From the NCBI GenBank assembly GCA_900472605.1, contig UCJD01000007.1, forward strand, positions 124,001 through 188,000: a stretch of DNA of 64,000 nucleotides, given 5' to 3'. The position numbers and the translations under genes are program-made. Source of the DNA: Hyphomicrobiales bacterium (GTDB lineage Bacteria; Pseudomonadota; Alphaproteobacteria; Rhizobiales; Rhizobiaceae). This document shows, in pieces, positions 4,508 through 10,124 of this stretch. Below the pieces are notes generated by a model. The model ran no database searches and was not told the DNA's origin. It saw only the letters and a program-made list of their open reading frames with translations. How positions within the stretch are numbered: position 1 is the first letter of the stretch; each line of letters opens with the position of its first letter.

Positions 4508-5743
4508 ATGTTCTCGCGTCTCGTCTTCGGGCTCGGCTTGCTGTCGGCCACCGCCCTCGTGCATCCCGCGTTCGCCACGGACGCGCGGGCGCTACAGATC
4601 TTCGTTTCCAAGAGCAAGCAATCGCTGGCCGTCTATGACGGAACCGACGTCATCGCCACGTCGAAGATATCGAGCGGAAAGTCCGGCCACACCACGCCCA
4701 GCGGCATCTTCTCTGTGATCGAGAAGCAGACCTACCACGAGTCCAACATCTACTCCGGCGCGCCGATGCCGTTCATGCAGCGGCTGACATGGTCCGGCAT
4801 CGCGCTTCACCAGTCGAACTCGGTGCCACGATATCCCGCCTCGCACGGCTGCGTGCGCATGCCCGACGCGTTCGCGAAGCAGCTCTACAAGATGACCGAG
4901 ATGGGTGTGCCTGTCATCATCACCGACGCGCAGCTTGCGCCCGAGCCGGTCGACCATCCGATGCTATTCAGCCCGCACGCGCCGCCACCGGCGCCGCTTC
5001 TGTCCGATGTCGAACTCAGGCCAGCAATCGGGGCGCTGCCGGTGCAGGTGGCGATGAACGAAGTCGCGATGCCGCGGCTGCAGGTGCAGCCGATCGTGGC
5101 GCCAGTCAACGATCAGCCGGTGAAGATCCTGATCACCCGCCGTGCGCAACGCGAGACGATCATCGACCTGCAGACCTATCTCGCCGAGCTCGGATTTGAG
5201 GTTGGCAACGCCGACGGCTATCTCGGGCCAGCAACGGTGCAGGCGATAGGCGAGTTCAAGAAACAGCATCCGCTGAACCCTGACGCCGCCAAGTCACTGA
5301 TCAGTGACGATCTCCTGCGTGCGGTGTATAGCGCCGCCGGCAAGGGCGAGCCGCCGAATGGCGTGATCATGGTGCGGCAGGGATTCCGGTCCGTGTTCGA
5401 GGCGCCGGTGACGATCAGTGAACCGGAACTTGCCCTCGGAACCCATTTCTTCAGCGCGCACCAAGTGAACTTCGACGACGGCACCACCGAGTGGCTGGGC
5501 GTGACGCTGCCCAACACCTTGACCAGCCAGACGATGAAGCGCCTGGGTATCAGCGCCATGGAAAGCTCGATCATCTCGGGCACGCCGATCCTCAACGCTC
5601 TCGGCCGGATCACCATTCCGGATGACACCAGGCAGCGGATCGACTCGATGCTGACGCCGGGTTCGACGATGACGATCTCCGACACCGGCGTCGGTCCGGA
5701 GACCGGTCAGGGCACCGACTTCATCACACTGACGCGCGGCTAG
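4508..5743 (+). CDS. Exported L,D-transpeptidase (YkuD) with peptidoglycan-binding domain
   Basis: A periplasmic enzyme expected to form 3-3 peptidoglycan cross-links or attach proteins to the wall. The 411-residue product has a signal peptide (MFSRLVFGLGLLSATALVHPAFA, cut after about residue 23), a YkuD domain at about 30-145 with H101 and the catalytic signature SHGCVR (C115), a proline-rich linker, a peptidoglycan-binding repeat at about 215-260 (LQTYLAELGF, DGYLGPATVQAI), and a C-terminal part of about 130 residues I cannot assign. The frame opens at TTG 4487, but ATG 4508 gives a clean signal peptide. The ribosome site is weak. Its stop codon overlaps the dnaE stop on the other strand. 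Confidence 0.9.
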   Translation: MFSRLVFGLGLLSATALVHPAFATDARALQIFVSKSKQSLAVYDGTDVIATSKISSGKSGHTTPSGIFSVIEKQTYHESNIYSGAPMPFMQRLTWSGIALHQSNSVPRYPASHGCVRMPDAFAKQLYKMTEMGVPVIITDAQLAPEPVDHPMLFSPHAPPPAPLLSDVELRPAIGALPVQVAMNEVAMPRLQVQPIVAPVNDQPVKILITRRAQRETIIDLQTYLAELGFEVGNADGYLGPATVQAIGEFKKQHPLNPDAAKSLISDDLLRAVYSAAGKGEPPNGVIMVRQGFRSVFEAPVTISEPELALGTHFFSAHQVNFDDGTTEWLGVTLPNTLTSQTMKRLGISAMESSIISGTPILNALGRITIPDDTRQRIDSMLTPGSTMTISDTGVGPETGQGTDFITLTRG

Positions 5744-8700
5744 ACCAGCTCCACATCGATGACGCCGGGCGCCGAGCGCATGGCGGCGGCGATTTCCGGC
5801 GTGATCCTGTATTTCTGCGCCAGTTCCACCTCAATCTCCCGCTTTCCATCCTCCTTGATAACGATGAAGGAGACGAGGCCGTCGCCTCTGGCGTTGAGGT
5901 GGGCGGCGACGGCGCGCAGCGGGCCGGAATCGCGAACATAGACGCGCAGCGCCTTCTGCATCTGCAGCGACTTCTCCTCCAGCGACTGGATCGTCTGGAT
6001 GCGCAGGCCGATGCCCTCCGGTCGCTCCTCGCCGGTGGCGGTAATGACGAAGGATTTTCCCGATTCCAGCATGTCGCGATACTGATTGAGCATCTCCGAG
6101 AAAAGCACCGCTTCGAACTGGCCGGAGGAATCCGAGAAGACGATGATGCCCATCTTGTTGCCGGTGCGCGTCTTGCGCTCCTGCTTGGAGATGACGGTTC
6201 CGGCGAGGCGCGCATTGGTGGCGCCCTGCTTCACGGCTGCTGCGAAATCACCGAATGTCTGGACGCGCATCTTCTCCAGAACGCTACTGTAGCTGTCGAG
6301 CGGATGGGCCGTCAGATAGAAACCGAGGACCTGGAACTCCTTCAGTAGCCGCTCGGAGGGAAGCCAGGGCGAGAAGGCCGGCATCGAGATCTTTTCCGGA
6401 CCCGCTCCTGATGACGCGCCGAAGAACCCCATCTGGCCACTGTTTTTCTCCTGCTGGGCATTCTGGGCGTAGCCCATGATGCGATCGATGCCGCCCGAGA
6501 GCTCTGCGCGATCGAGCTCGAAGCAATCGAAGGCGCCCGCGAAGATCAGGCTTTCCAGCACGCGCCGGTTCACCTGCTTCGGATCGATGCGCAGGCAAAA
6601 ATCCTCAAGGCTTGCGAATGGCGTGTCGCCGCGCACCTCGACGATATGATCGACGGCCGATTCGCCGACGCCCTTCAGCGCCGCCAGCGCATAATAGATG
6701 CGGTTGTCGCCGGTCTGGAAGTGGCGGAACGAGGTCTGCACCGAGGGCGCGATGACCTCGATACCGAGGCGCTTGGAATCCTGGCGGAAGTCGTTGACCT
6801 TCTCTGTGTTCGACATATCGAGCGTCATCGATGCGGCGAGGAACTCGACCGGATAATGCGCCTTCATGTAGGCCGTCTGATAGGAGACGATGGCGTAGGC
6901 GGCCGCGTGCGACTTGTTGAAGCCGTAGTTGGCGAACTTCGCCAGAAGCTCGAAGATGTTGTCGGCCTGCGGCTTCGACACGCCGTTCTTGACGGCGCCG
7001 ACGACAAAGCGCTCGCGCTGCTGGTCCATCTCCGCCTTGATCTTCTTACCCATGGCGCGGCGCAGAAGATCGGCCTCTCCGAGCGAATAGCCCGAGAGCA
7101 CCTGAGCGATCTGCATGACCTGCTCCTGGTAGACGATAACGCCCTGTGTCTCCTTCAAGAGGTAATCGATGGTCGGATGAATCGATTCGAGCTCTTCTTC
7201 GCCGTGCTTGCGGGCGTTGTAGGTCGGGATGTTCTCCATCGGACCCGGGCGATAGAGCGCCACGAGCGCGATGATGTCCTCGATGCAGTCAGGCCGCATG
7301 CCGATCAGCGCCTTGCGCATGCCGGCGCTTTCCACCTGGAACACGCCGACCGTTTCGCCGCGCGAGAGCATCTCATAGGTCAGCTTGTCATCGAGCGGGA
7401 TGGCAGCGAGATCGACCTTGATACCGCGCTTGGCCACGAAATCGACGGCGACCTTCAGCGTCGTCAGCGTCTTCAGGCCGAGGAAGTCGAACTTGACGAG
7501 GCCGGCCTGCTCGACCCACTTCATGTTGAACTGGGTGACCGGCATGTCGGAGCGCGGATCGCGGTACATCGGCACCAGCTTCGATAGCGGGCGGTCGCCG
7601 ATAACGATACCGGCGGCGTGGGTCGATGCGTGGCGGTAGAGACCTTCGATCTTCTGTGCGATGTCGAGCAGGCGGGCGACGACGGGTTCCTTGTCGGCCT
7701 CCTCCTGCAGCTTCGGCTCTTCCTCGATCGCCTTCGACAATGGTGTCGGGTTGGCCGGATTGTTGGGTACCAGCTTGCAGATCTTGTCGACCTGGCCGTA
7801 TGGCATCTCCAGCACGCGGCCGACGTCGCGCAGCGCCGCACGGGCCTGAAGCGAACCGAAGGTGATGATCTGCGCCACCTGCTCGCGGCCGTACTTCTTC
7901 TGCACGTAGCGGATGACCTCTTCGCGGCGATCCTGGCAGAAGTCGATATCGAAGTCGGGCATCGAGACGCGTTCCGGATTGAGGAAGCGCTCGAAGAGCA
8001 GCGAGAAGCGCAGCGGATCGACGTCGGTGATGGTCAGCGCATAGGCGACCAGCGAGCCCGCGCCGGAGCCGCGGCCGGGGCCGACGGGAATATCCTGCAG
8101 CTTCGCCCACTTGATGAAGTCGGCAACGATCAGGAAGTAGCCCGGGAATTTCATGCGCTCGATGACGCTGAGCTCGAATTCCAGGCGGTCGCGGTAATCC
8201 TTTTCCTCATAGCCCGCTGACATGCCGAGCGTCTGCAAGCGCATGTCGAGACCCTCGACAGCCTGGCGGCGGAGCTCCAGCGCCTCTTCGCGCTCCGCCT
8301 CCTCCGGATCCGCCGATGCACCGGTGAAGCGCGGCAGGATCGGTTTGCGTGTCTTCAAGACGAAAGAGCAGCGCCGGGCGATCTCCACCGTATTCTCAAG
8401 CGCCTCCGGCAGATCGGCGAAGAGCTTCACCATCTCGGCGCGGCTCTTCAGATAGTGGTCCGGCGTCAGCCGAAAACGCGTGTCGTCGGAGACAATGGCG
8501 TTGTGCGCCACTGCCATCAGCGCATCGTGCGCGTCATAATCGTCACGGGTCGGGAAGAAGGCCTCGTTGGTCGCGACCAGCGGGATCTCATGCTCATAGG
8601 CAAGGCCGATCACACGCTGCTCGTGGCGCTTGTCGTAGGTGCCCTGCCGCTGAAGCTCCATGTAGAGCCGATCGCCGAACTTGTCCTTCAGAGACAGCAA

Positions 8701-9237
8701 TCGGGCCGTGGCCGGCGCGATGTGGCCCTCTTTCAGCGGCATGTCGATCGGGCCGGTCGATGCGCCTGACAGCGCGATCAGGCCCTCGGTGCCAAGCTCG
8801 TCCAGCCAGGAGGCCTTGATGTGGACCGCCTGCCCAGCGCCCTCGCCGCCGAGATAGGCACGGCTGACGAGATCCACCAGCCGCTCGTAGCCTGCATCGG
8901 TGGCCGACAGCAGCACGATCGACGGCAGTTTCGCCAGTTGCTGCTGGCCGCCGCGGCGCTCGGTCTCCAGCCCGTCCTCCATGTCAATGGAGACCTGGCA
9001 GCCGATGATCGGCTGCAGACCTTCGTCCATCGACTTCTGTGCGAATTCGAGGGCGACGAACAGATTGTTGGTGTCGGTGATGGCGATCGCCGGCTGGCTA
9101 TCGCTGGATGCCTTGTAGAGAATTTTCTTGAGCGGCAGCGCCCCCTCAAGCAGCGAGAAGGCGGAGTGAACACGCAGGTGAACGAAGCCCGGCGTACCGC
9201 CGATGAAGTCGTTCGCGCCGTCTTCCGTGCCCGCCAT
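5740..9237 (-). CDS. dnaE: DNA polymerase III alpha subunit (replicative DnaE1)
   Basis: The catalytic subunit of the chromosomal replicase, 1165 residues. An N-terminal PHP domain (HLRVHSAFSLLEGAL) is followed by the C-family polymerase core with catalytic aspartates in PDFDIDF, the GPGRGSGAGS motif, tandem helix-hairpin-helix, and an OB-fold near the C-terminus. The QMGFF sequence before the OB-fold fits the internal beta-clamp-binding motif of replicative DnaE, and length and domains favour DnaE1 over mutagenic DnaE2. ATG 9237 begins MAGTEDGAND; the frame is open upstream to 9357 but that part is not conserved in style. It converges on the L,D-transpeptidase gene with a 4-bp overlap of the two genes. 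Confidence 0.96.
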   Translation of the reverse strand: MAGTEDGANDFIGGTPGFVHLRVHSAFSLLEGALPLKKILYKASSDSQPAIAITDTNNLFVALEFAQKSMDEGLQPIIGCQVSIDMEDGLETERRGGQQQLAKLPSIVLLSATDAGYERLVDLVSRAYLGGEGAGQAVHIKASWLDELGTEGLIALSGASTGPIDMPLKEGHIAPATARLLSLKDKFGDRLYMELQRQGTYDKRHEQRVIGLAYEHEIPLVATNEAFFPTRDDYDAHDALMAVAHNAIVSDDTRFRLTPDHYLKSRAEMVKLFADLPEALENTVEIARRCSFVLKTRKPILPRFTGASADPEEAEREEALELRRQAVEGLDMRLQTLGMSAGYEEKDYRDRLEFELSVIERMKFPGYFLIVADFIKWAKLQDIPVGPGRGSGAGSLVAYALTITDVDPLRFSLLFERFLNPERVSMPDFDIDFCQDRREEVIRYVQKKYGREQVAQIITFGSLQARAALRDVGRVLEMPYGQVDKICKLVPNNPANPTPLSKAIEEEPKLQEEADKEPVVARLLDIAQKIEGLYRHASTHAAGIVIGDRPLSKLVPMYRDPRSDMPVTQFNMKWVEQAGLVKFDFLGLKTLTTLKVAVDFVAKRGIKVDLAAIPLDDKLTYEMLSRGETVGVFQVESAGMRKALIGMRPDCIEDIIALVALYRPGPMENIPTYNARKHGEEELESIHPTIDYLLKETQGVIVYQEQVMQIAQVLSGYSLGEADLLRRAMGKKIKAEMDQQRERFVVGAVKNGVSKPQADNIFELLAKFANYGFNKSHAAAYAIVSYQTAYMKAHYPVEFLAASMTLDMSNTEKVNDFRQDSKRLGIEVIAPSVQTSFRHFQTGDNRIYYALAALKGVGESAVDHIVEVRGDTPFASLEDFCLRIDPKQVNRRVLESLIFAGAFDCFELDRAELSGGIDRIMGYAQNAQQEKNSGQMGFFGASSGAGPEKISMPAFSPWLPSERLLKEFQVLGFYLTAHPLDSYSSVLEKMRVQTFGDFAAAVKQGATNARLAGTVISKQERKTRTGNKMGIIVFSDSSGQFEAVLFSEMLNQYRDMLESGKSFVITATGEERPEGIGLRIQTIQSLEEKSLQMQKALRVYVRDSGPLRAVAAHLNARGDGLVSFIVIKEDGKREIEVELAQKYRITPEIAAAMRSAPGVIDVELV

Positions 9238-9319
9238 GATATGCCTTTCCGCGCATTCGTATGAATCGGATGCATTGTCGGATTTAGGGAGGACGATGTC
9301 CAGAGAGGCGGGTACCATT

Positions 9320-9344
9320 GGACCGCATGACAGCCATGCGGTCC
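9320..9344 (-). other. Perfect 10-bp hairpin between the small-peptide gene and dnaE
   Basis: Arms GGACCGCATG (9320-9329) and CATGCGGTCC (9335-9344) are fully complementary with a 5-nt loop. It starts 9 nt after the stop of the 28-residue peptide gene and ends 82 nt before dnaE. No T-run follows on the minus strand, so it is not a textbook intrinsic terminator; it may mark a processed or Rho-dependent 3' end of the peptide mRNA or a leader structure of dnaE. Confidence 0.55.
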
Positions 9345-9353
9345 CCGTTATTC

Positions 9354-9440
9354 TCACATTGCCATGCAGATCAAAGAGAAGCTGGCAATGAACATTGCGA
9401 TGGAGGTGAATGCTGCGATATCGCGGATCATATCAGTCAT
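9354..9440 (-). CDS. 28-residue single-pass membrane peptide, predicted SOS-induced
   Basis: ATG at 9438-9440 to TGA at 9354-9356 encodes 28 residues: a short charged head, MTDMIRD, then about 20 hydrophobic residues (AAFTSIAMFIASF and SLICMAM) that would form one membrane helix. A strong ribosome site AGGAGA lies 5 nt before the ATG. Upstream on the same strand are a consensus -35 TTGACA (9491-9496) and a perfect LexA box (9473-9487), 32 nt before the start codon. Size, topology and LexA control resemble the Caulobacter SOS division inhibitor SidA (29 residues, inner membrane), but I see no basis for claiming sequence homology. Function is inferred only. It lies upstream of dnaE on the same strand. 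Confidence 0.7.
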   Translation of the reverse strand: MTDMIRDIAAFTSIAMFIASFSLICMAM

Positions 9441-9472
9441 TTGGCTCTCCTGTGCTCTTATGTTTCCAGTTT

Positions 9473-9487
9473 GTTCCGCTCTTGTTC
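9473..9487 (-). promoter_or_regulatory. LexA (SOS) box between the small-peptide gene and an exported-protein gene
   Basis: GTTCCGCTCTTGTTC on the plus strand is a perfect GTTC-N7-GTTC operator (GAAC-N7-GAAC on the minus strand). On the minus strand it sits just downstream of a perfect -35 hexamer TTGACA (9491-9496) and overlaps the spacer and expected -10 (CAAACT at 17-bp spacing, a weak match). LexA bound here would occlude that promoter. The same site is 55 bp before the plus-strand gene at 9543, so dual control is possible. Confidence 0.8.
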
Positions 9488-9542
9488 TATTGTCAACAGG
9501 ATTCTTTTTCGCTCTCGTCAGAGCGACCCTCCGGAGAAAAGC

Positions 9543-10124
9543 ATGTTTAAATTTGTCTTAATCCTCGCACTCGCGTCCAGCGCCGCCTCAGCCCTGGCCG
9601 AGCAGGTCGACCCGGCCGCGATCATCGCCGGGGCGACAGGTGATTGGAACGGTGACGGCAACAACGATTTGGCCCTGCTGGTCGCACCGCCGGAGCCAGG
9701 AGACGACATCGGGATCTATCTCTATTTGCAGGATAAGAGCCACTCGCTGCAACGCCTCGTCACTGCGGCGCCCGGCAAGATCTGGGGCAATGGCAGCCTA
9801 GACGGCATGTTCGGGCAGGATCCCTCGATCGAGGCTCGGCCGGGCGGGTCGATCGCGGTTTCCTCGCAGAACTCAGCCATCGGCCGCAACCGCTGGGAAC
9901 AGACGCTGACGATCGCCTATCGCGACGAACAGTTCGTCGTCGCCGGCTACACCTACAGCTATTACGACACTCTAGACACCGACGAGAACGGCCAGTGCGA
10001 CTACAATATCCTGACGGGCAAGGTGGTGGCAAAGGGCAAGACGTCGACGATCGATCCGAAGACGATCGCGGTCAGCGATTGGCAGGACGAGGTCGGCCAG
10101 AAGGCGTGCGGGTTTGGCGAGTGA
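9543..10124 (+). CDS. Exported protein of unknown function with a DWNGDGNNDLALL motif
   Basis: A 193-residue protein with a clear signal peptide (MFKFVLILALASSAASALA, cleavage near residue 19). Just after it is GDWNGDGNNDLALL, an FG-GAP/VCBS-like calcium-loop repeat, of which only one copy is obvious; a second acidic loop DTDENGQCD lies near residue 155. No enzymatic motif is visible. ATG 9543 is preceded by GGAGAA. The frame is open upstream to 9318, but that stretch has no coding character and overlaps the antisense small-peptide gene. A LexA box lies 55 bp upstream. Probably periplasmic; function unknown. Confidence 0.8.
   Translation: MFKFVLILALASSAASALAEQVDPAAIIAGATGDWNGDGNNDLALLVAPPEPGDDIGIYLYLQDKSHSLQRLVTAAPGKIWGNGSLDGMFGQDPSIEARPGGSIAVSSQNSAIGRNRWEQTLTIAYRDEQFVVAGYTYSYYDTLDTDENGQCDYNILTGKVVAKGKTSTIDPKTIAVSDWQDEVGQKACGFGE

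Follow-up and report, generated by a model that had tools for sequence, protein, structure and literature searches.

SidA of Caulobacter is described as a 29-residue, SOS-induced peptide of the inner membrane that interacts with FtsW and is proposed to hold FtsW/FtsI/FtsN inactive (PMC4211646). Its gene carries the locus name CCNA_02004 (PMC10769358), and dnaE of Caulobacter is CC1926 (PMC1839093). Small division inhibitors that are likewise induced by damage include DidA of Caulobacter, YneA of Bacillus, and SosA of Staphylococcus (PMC4211646, PMC13396833, PMC6851548)—DidA, unlike SidA, is reported to be SOS-independent, and yneA and sidA have been termed unrelated genes (PMC4211646). TisB of E. 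coli is also SOS-induced, and is described as depolarising the inner membrane (PMC8145889). In Sinorhizobium meliloti 2011, ribosome profiling has revealed a novel translated small frame, sORF25, within the 5'-UTR of dnaE1 (PMC10117765). Across the titles and abstract openings that our literature search covered, there was no SidA homologue outside the relatives of Caulobacter, no SOS peptide upstream of a rhizobial dnaE1, and no named rhizobial SOS division inhibitor.

Architecture of the Locus

The locus described here lies on the minus strand of the window, by which we mean the whole stretch of 64,000 nucleotides that was analysed. Its features are given below in window coordinates, with the basis of each call in brackets.

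9354..9440, minus strand: sidA-like open reading frame of 28 residues plus stop, MTDMIRDIAAFTSIAMFIASFSLICMAM (sequence, conservation, pN/pS)
9446..9451, minus strand: ribosome-binding site AGGAGA, with the ATG 5 nt further on (sequence, conservation)
9491..9496, minus strand: -35 hexamer TTGACA (sequence; family columns aligned on the box)
9473..9487, minus strand: predicted LexA box GAAC-AAGAGCG-GAAC, GAACAAGAGCGGAAC (sequence; family conservation)
9468..9473, minus strand: poor -10 hexamer CAAACT, 17 nt past the -35; family consensus CAAAAT (sequence, column consensus)
9462..9465, minus strand: AAAC resembling a third half-site, one 11-nt step beyond the LexA box ([AG]AAC-like columns 22-25)
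9320..9344, no strand assigned: perfect 10-bp hairpin, past the peptide gene and ahead of dnaE1 (sequence)
9274..9302, minus strand: promoter-like TGGACA-17-GACAAT in the same gap (promoter scan)
5740..9237, minus strand: dnaE1, replicative DNA polymerase III alpha subunit (TIGR00594, 1187 bits)

A sequence-only reading of this DNA had proposed a 28-codon minus-strand frame with AGGAGA at 5 nt, a charged N-terminus followed by one hydrophobic stretch, a perfect TTGACA and a perfect GTTC-N7-GTTC in the promoter, and a position upstream of dnaE, all of which are borne out. The frame occupies 9354-9440; the N-terminus carries the charged residues D3, R6, and D7, and the peptide is hydrophobic, by eye, from about residue 8 through the C-terminus. 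On the plus strand GAACAAGAGCGGAAC reads GTTC-N7-GTTC, and it falls between TTGACA and the expected -10 site, an anatomy that would fit LexA repression by occlusion together with a membrane-embedded helix. The promoter of the peptide gene was absent from the output of a strict sigma-70 scan. The dnaE1 ATG is at 9237, leaving 116 nt between the frame and dnaE1.

Within this gap, the hairpin at 9320-9344 has a T-run on its plus-strand side only; it recurs in 8 of 16 other loci inspected, the eight being loci of the genus; L022, L024, and L028 have different sequence in its place. Sequences like TGGACA-17-GACAAT are seen by eye in other loci of the genus. As the promoter-like site (9302-9274) lies between the frame and dnaE1, dnaE1 may have a promoter of its own as well, with 9274-9302 as the possible candidate.

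Conservation in the Genus and Family

The GAAC-N7-GAAC pattern occurs 3 times in the window against 2.03 expected, and 160 times genome-wide against 149 for the reversed pattern; box frequency alone is thus at chance level in both, and was rejected as evidence. The placement and conservation of the box, described below, are far beyond chance. The genome's own lexA has GAACACATATGGAAC about 50 nt upstream of its start, and GAAC-N7-GAAC is therefore a form of the box that the organism likely uses. The sequence-only reading had assigned the DNA to Rhizobium; in a plasmid collection, the nearest records listed are of Shinella and Sinorhizobium, at about 80% identity, with five Rhizobium records in the tally.

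Of 36 further genomes in the window's genus, 33 contain a match to a 200-bp region around the peptide gene; 24 genomes from other families were also searched, and no convincing match was seen. Thirty loci from the genus search were read, the window's included: the peptide is present in all, both GAAC half-sites are fixed, and the 7-nt spacer is variable. With a profile of 11 genus peptides, matches were obtained in 189 of 297 family genomes at E<=1, a set whose weak end includes chance matches. The family loci include 110 matches in 109 genomes of this profile search, with near-duplicates skipped; the 140 loci in all came to 137 distinct ones once three duplicates (L031-L033) were removed, and in 129 of these the frame is followed by dnaE1 in the same orientation. 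The remaining 8 of 137 have no dnaE1 in the fetched stretch, and so fall outside the 129. Three of them (L106, L111, and L124) have no box either. The other five (L114, L118, L119, L129, and L133, all of the window's family) have the peptide and LexA box, with no dnaE1 within about 800 nt on either side; a longer gap or a relocated dnaE1 is possible there.

The box, which played no part in the search, is perfect within 90 nt upstream of the frame in 117 of 129 family loci (mean 1.2 and maximum 4 in 20 rounds of dinucleotide shuffles), and is present with at most one mismatch in 128 (shuffles: mean 14.8, maximum 21), the exception being L140, which has dnaE1. From the end of the box to the start codon there are 31-38 nt in 104 of the 117 perfect-box loci, and when 113 loci are aligned with the box as anchor, each column of the TTGAC ahead of it is conserved at 84-95%. 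The peptide, as called, has exactly 28 residues in 122 of the 129 loci and 25 or 32 in the other seven, a conservation that is partly conditioned, since loci were picked by peptide-profile score. The first aligned residue of dnaE1 follows 85 to 659 nt downstream. The sequence-only reading had suggested comparing the frame and its LexA box among relatives, and the window's family indeed keeps both ahead of dnaE1.

It had also raised the balance of synonymous and nonsynonymous change, and the two rates are not equal: pN/pS in the peptide frame is 0.17 over the 378 pairs formed by 28 distinct sequences from 32 loci of the genus. In the same set the two remaining sense frames give 1.68 and 2.87, and the three antisense frames 1.26, 0.35, and 4.22. 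Selection acts on the amino acids of the peptide frame.

The third half-site, 7 nt beyond the LexA box, has columns A68 A88 A92 C91, and is a full GAAC in S. meliloti (L299, 1175-1178), L036, and L037. This pattern suggests two overlapping putative LexA sites in register.

SidA and Its Locus in Caulobacter

Four named Caulobacter genomes have a 29-codon frame and GAAC repeats in the region before dnaE1; the 29-residue peptide scores 74 bits against NCBIfam NF033228 (cut-off 35), a model with matches over the cut-off in 50 of 80 genomes of the family to which that Caulobacter genome belongs. We take sidA to be CC1927. We read 34 SidA loci—the 4 named Caulobacter and the best 30 of the family, from 33 genomes, since L250 repeats L247—and all 34 encode 29 residues with dnaE1 next, 19-277 nt separating the SidA stop from the first aligned dnaE1 residue. 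Because SidA stands directly before dnaE1 in 34 of 34 loci, SidA and the window peptide occupy the same place. A perfect box is found within 110 nt upstream in 27 of the 34, and a box with at most one mismatch in 34; perfect boxes end 13-49 nt upstream of the start, so that the spacing is more variable than in the window's family.

The window peptide resembles SidA in having one hydrophobic helix and nearly the same length (28 against 29 residues), in the position of its gene directly before dnaE1, and in the GAAC-N7-GAAC box upstream, a predicted LexA site. The two families also have a common motif, ungapped from Met1: [RK]6-[DE]7-x-x-[AS]10-[FL]11-x-S13-[IV]14-x-x-F17-[VI]18. Every one of these positions is kept in 27/27 SidA peptides; among the 92 distinct peptides of the window's family, [DE]7, [AS]10, and [FL]11 are each kept in 92/92, F17 in 91/92, S13 in 90/92, [RK]6 in 86/92, [VI]18 in 83/92, and [IV]14 in 69/92.

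Profile comparisons support this register in both directions. A SidA HMM gives the 92 family peptides a mean of 8.7 bits, against 0.7 for shuffles in which the N-terminus and helix were kept apart, and for 83 of the 92 the real peptide outscored 95 or more of the 100 shuffles made from it. In the reverse test, the family HMM gives SidA peptides 14.95, against 2.26 for shuffles, with 27 of 27 above; no column-permuted family out of 300 matched the real scores in either direction. Aligning the 92 family peptides with the 27 SidA peptides in hhalign places columns 1-18 onto 1-18 without gaps, at probability 78.8 and E 1.7e-5 (one template). None of 200 permuted SidA profiles scored as high, the nearest reaching 20.67 against the real 21.42.

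The window peptide alone is a weaker case. It has no match to NF033228 or any other NCBIfam model at E<=1, and its Pfam search was empty; against the SidA HMM it scores 5.0 bits, a value also attained by 59 of 1000 shuffles and, among the 2732 other hydrophobic 28-mers in the window, by 45; its identity to SidA is 6/28. In a 240-genome sample of the class, NF033228 matched at E<=1 in 93 genomes and was over its cut-off in none, which is no proof of absence because the sample holds at least one Caulobacter-family genome below the cut-off (G417, whose place duplicates that of G690); the weak match in the window's genome lies away from the peptide locus. The window peptide is unlike SidA in its C-terminal half and in escaping detection by NF033228. 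Sequence homology to SidA is thus found at the level of the family and is weak for the window sequence by itself. Because of family-level similarity, locus, and regulation, rather than the window sequence itself, the window peptide is probably a homologue of SidA that has diverged, at a sidA-dnaE1 locus of old standing. The sequence-only reading had named it a SidA-like candidate and a functional analogue. The likeness is supported, whereas the label is better replaced by "homologue at the same locus", because SidA also precedes dnaE1 under boxes of the same kind and shares the motif in register from Met1.

Distribution in the Order and Class

A survey of dnaE1 upstream regions found a perfect box, an RBS-like word, and a hydrophobic small frame together at 16 of the 29 loci sampled from the order and at 7 of the 67 from other orders; the loci were the best-scoring dnaE matches or were hand-picked from larger genomes, and these fractions are not population rates. 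One locus of the order sample, L236, belongs to the window's own family and has nothing there; with it set aside, the other families give 16 of 28. L213, from the window's genus, is among the 97 regions and was left out of the survey. Block shuffles of the survey regions gave 0 in 30 rounds.

Scores attained by at most 5 of 300 shuffles are reached by 13 of the 16 order-level peptides when they are compared with the family profile, and by 3 of the 16 when they are compared with the SidA profile. For the peptides of other orders the corresponding figures are 1 of 7 and 0 of 7. The weak direct likeness of the order-level peptides to SidA lowers confidence in the SidA reading, and for the surveyed peptides of other orders we make no claim of homology. 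In two loci of other orders (L185 and L204), different-looking peptides of the MDWVKDAAGLAALVGLWGAFAAWAEIIGSVVGS type stand in the same place, before dnaE1 and behind GAAC-N7-GAAC.

We tentatively consider a broader picture, to which we give somewhat less than even odds: sidA-dnaE1 could be an old alphaproteobacterial checkpoint module, comprising an SOS promoter, a fast-evolving membrane peptide that stops division, and possible read-through into dnaE1, with diverged or replaced peptides at a fixed site, both in the relatives of Caulobacter and the window's family and in further families of its order and a number of other orders.

The Counterpart in Sinorhizobium meliloti

In S. meliloti Ak57, the homologue MADFVRDLAAFASMSLFIVSISVIALGL ends 150 nt upstream of dnaE and is preceded by CTTGAC and the LexA box GAACGGAAATAGAACAAAAAGGGAAC; the site has no annotated feature in what is an incomplete gene table. 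The Ak57 record concerned, CP090106.1 (L299), is labelled pSymB, is 3.72 Mb long, and bears dnaE; it has the look of the chromosome, labelled as a plasmid.

The published sORF25, located in the dnaE1 5'-UTR, is probably the S. meliloti version of the window's peptide frame. The publication states that 5'-UTR sORFs, with sORF25 named, could serve as uORFs; its main text gives no function and has no match to LexA or SOS (PMC10117765). The window frame thus differs from sORF25 as published by its predicted LexA/SOS link. The suggestion, from the sequence alone, that the peptide might be undescribed accordingly fails as regards the translation of a small frame within the dnaE1 5'-UTR of S. meliloti, which is in print (PMC10117765), and holds for the function and the LexA/SOS link as far as that source goes.

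Proposed Mechanism and Alternative Readings

Computation has established the conserved frame, box, and synteny, selection on the amino acids, and family-level similarity to SidA in register. To these we add a mechanism in which LexA binding, induction, membrane insertion, the FtsW target, and the division block are what we infer. LexA on GAAC-N7-GAAC, between the -35 and -10, would keep the promoter off; upon DNA damage, RecA-stimulated LexA cleavage would free it; the 28-residue peptide would then be made and insert into the inner membrane as a single helix; and, like SidA, it would keep the FtsW/FtsI/FtsN septum-synthesis complex inactive until the damage is repaired. We put the probability of this whole explanation—a diverged sidA homologue, repressed by LexA, freed by damage, and holding FtsW/FtsI/FtsN inactive—at roughly 0.75.

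The FtsW substitutions F145L and A246T are reported to suppress both SidA and DidA, and A31K to suppress SidA (PMC4211646). FtsW is found over cut-off in the window's genome, and is identical at F145 and A246, with M at residue 31 (numbering of Caulobacter sp. Root343). This combination would be compatible with a shared target whose contact has co-diverged; F145 and A246 may instead be conserved for general reasons. The replacement of A31, the SidA-specific suppressor site, by M counts against the SidA reading, as does the poor -10.

There is a first alternative, which we regard as unlikely: an SOS membrane peptide at the sidA locus could have another target, either a different divisome protein or an enzyme of polar growth. 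Bacteria of the window's kind grow from one pole. Divergence of the C-terminal half and of FtsW residue 31 would be expected on this account, and so would the strong divergence of same-locus peptides elsewhere in the order and class; however, the first 18 columns are common with SidA, and FtsW retains F145 and A246, perhaps for general reasons.

The peptide could also be a toxin of the TisB kind, LexA-controlled and depolarising the inner membrane, favouring dormancy over a specific block of septation. TisB is 29 residues long, and with IstR forms a type I toxin-antitoxin system in which the antitoxin is an antisense RNA. In gross make-up the window peptide is the same, being small and hydrophobic with SOS control and an inner-membrane location that are predicted here (compare PMC8145889). 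The locus, register, and motif held in common with SidA nevertheless make this reading distinctly improbable. A search of 9100-9700 against Rfam gave no match, to an antisense RNA family or any other, which is a weak point, as a novel antisense RNA would escape.

A leader frame that regulates dnaE1 in cis, its peptide inert, would account for a frame 116 nt before dnaE1, and would be in line with the uORF role suggested for 5'-UTR sORFs including sORF25 (PMC10117765). We judge it highly improbable, given that the distance to dnaE1 varies from 85 to 659 nt in the 129 loci, that the hairpin is missing from some loci inspected, that a promoter-like site intervenes before dnaE1, that selection acts on the amino acids of the frame, and that SidA is an inhibitor that binds protein. 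Finally, a chance frame beside a chance box would explain why the box alone occurs at chance frequency, but frame, length, box, spacing, and synteny are all conserved, which contradicts this reading and leaves it next to no weight.

Implications

For the window's family, which includes nitrogen-fixing symbionts, the locus offers one specific 28-residue candidate for an SOS division inhibitor; the differentiated forms of such symbionts stop dividing. If the diverged-SidA reading is confirmed, a LexA box and a tiny hydrophobic frame before dnaE1 would become a rule for finding such genes where sequence search fails, and SidA, which curated models now see in the relatives of Caulobacter, would be a widespread checkpoint.
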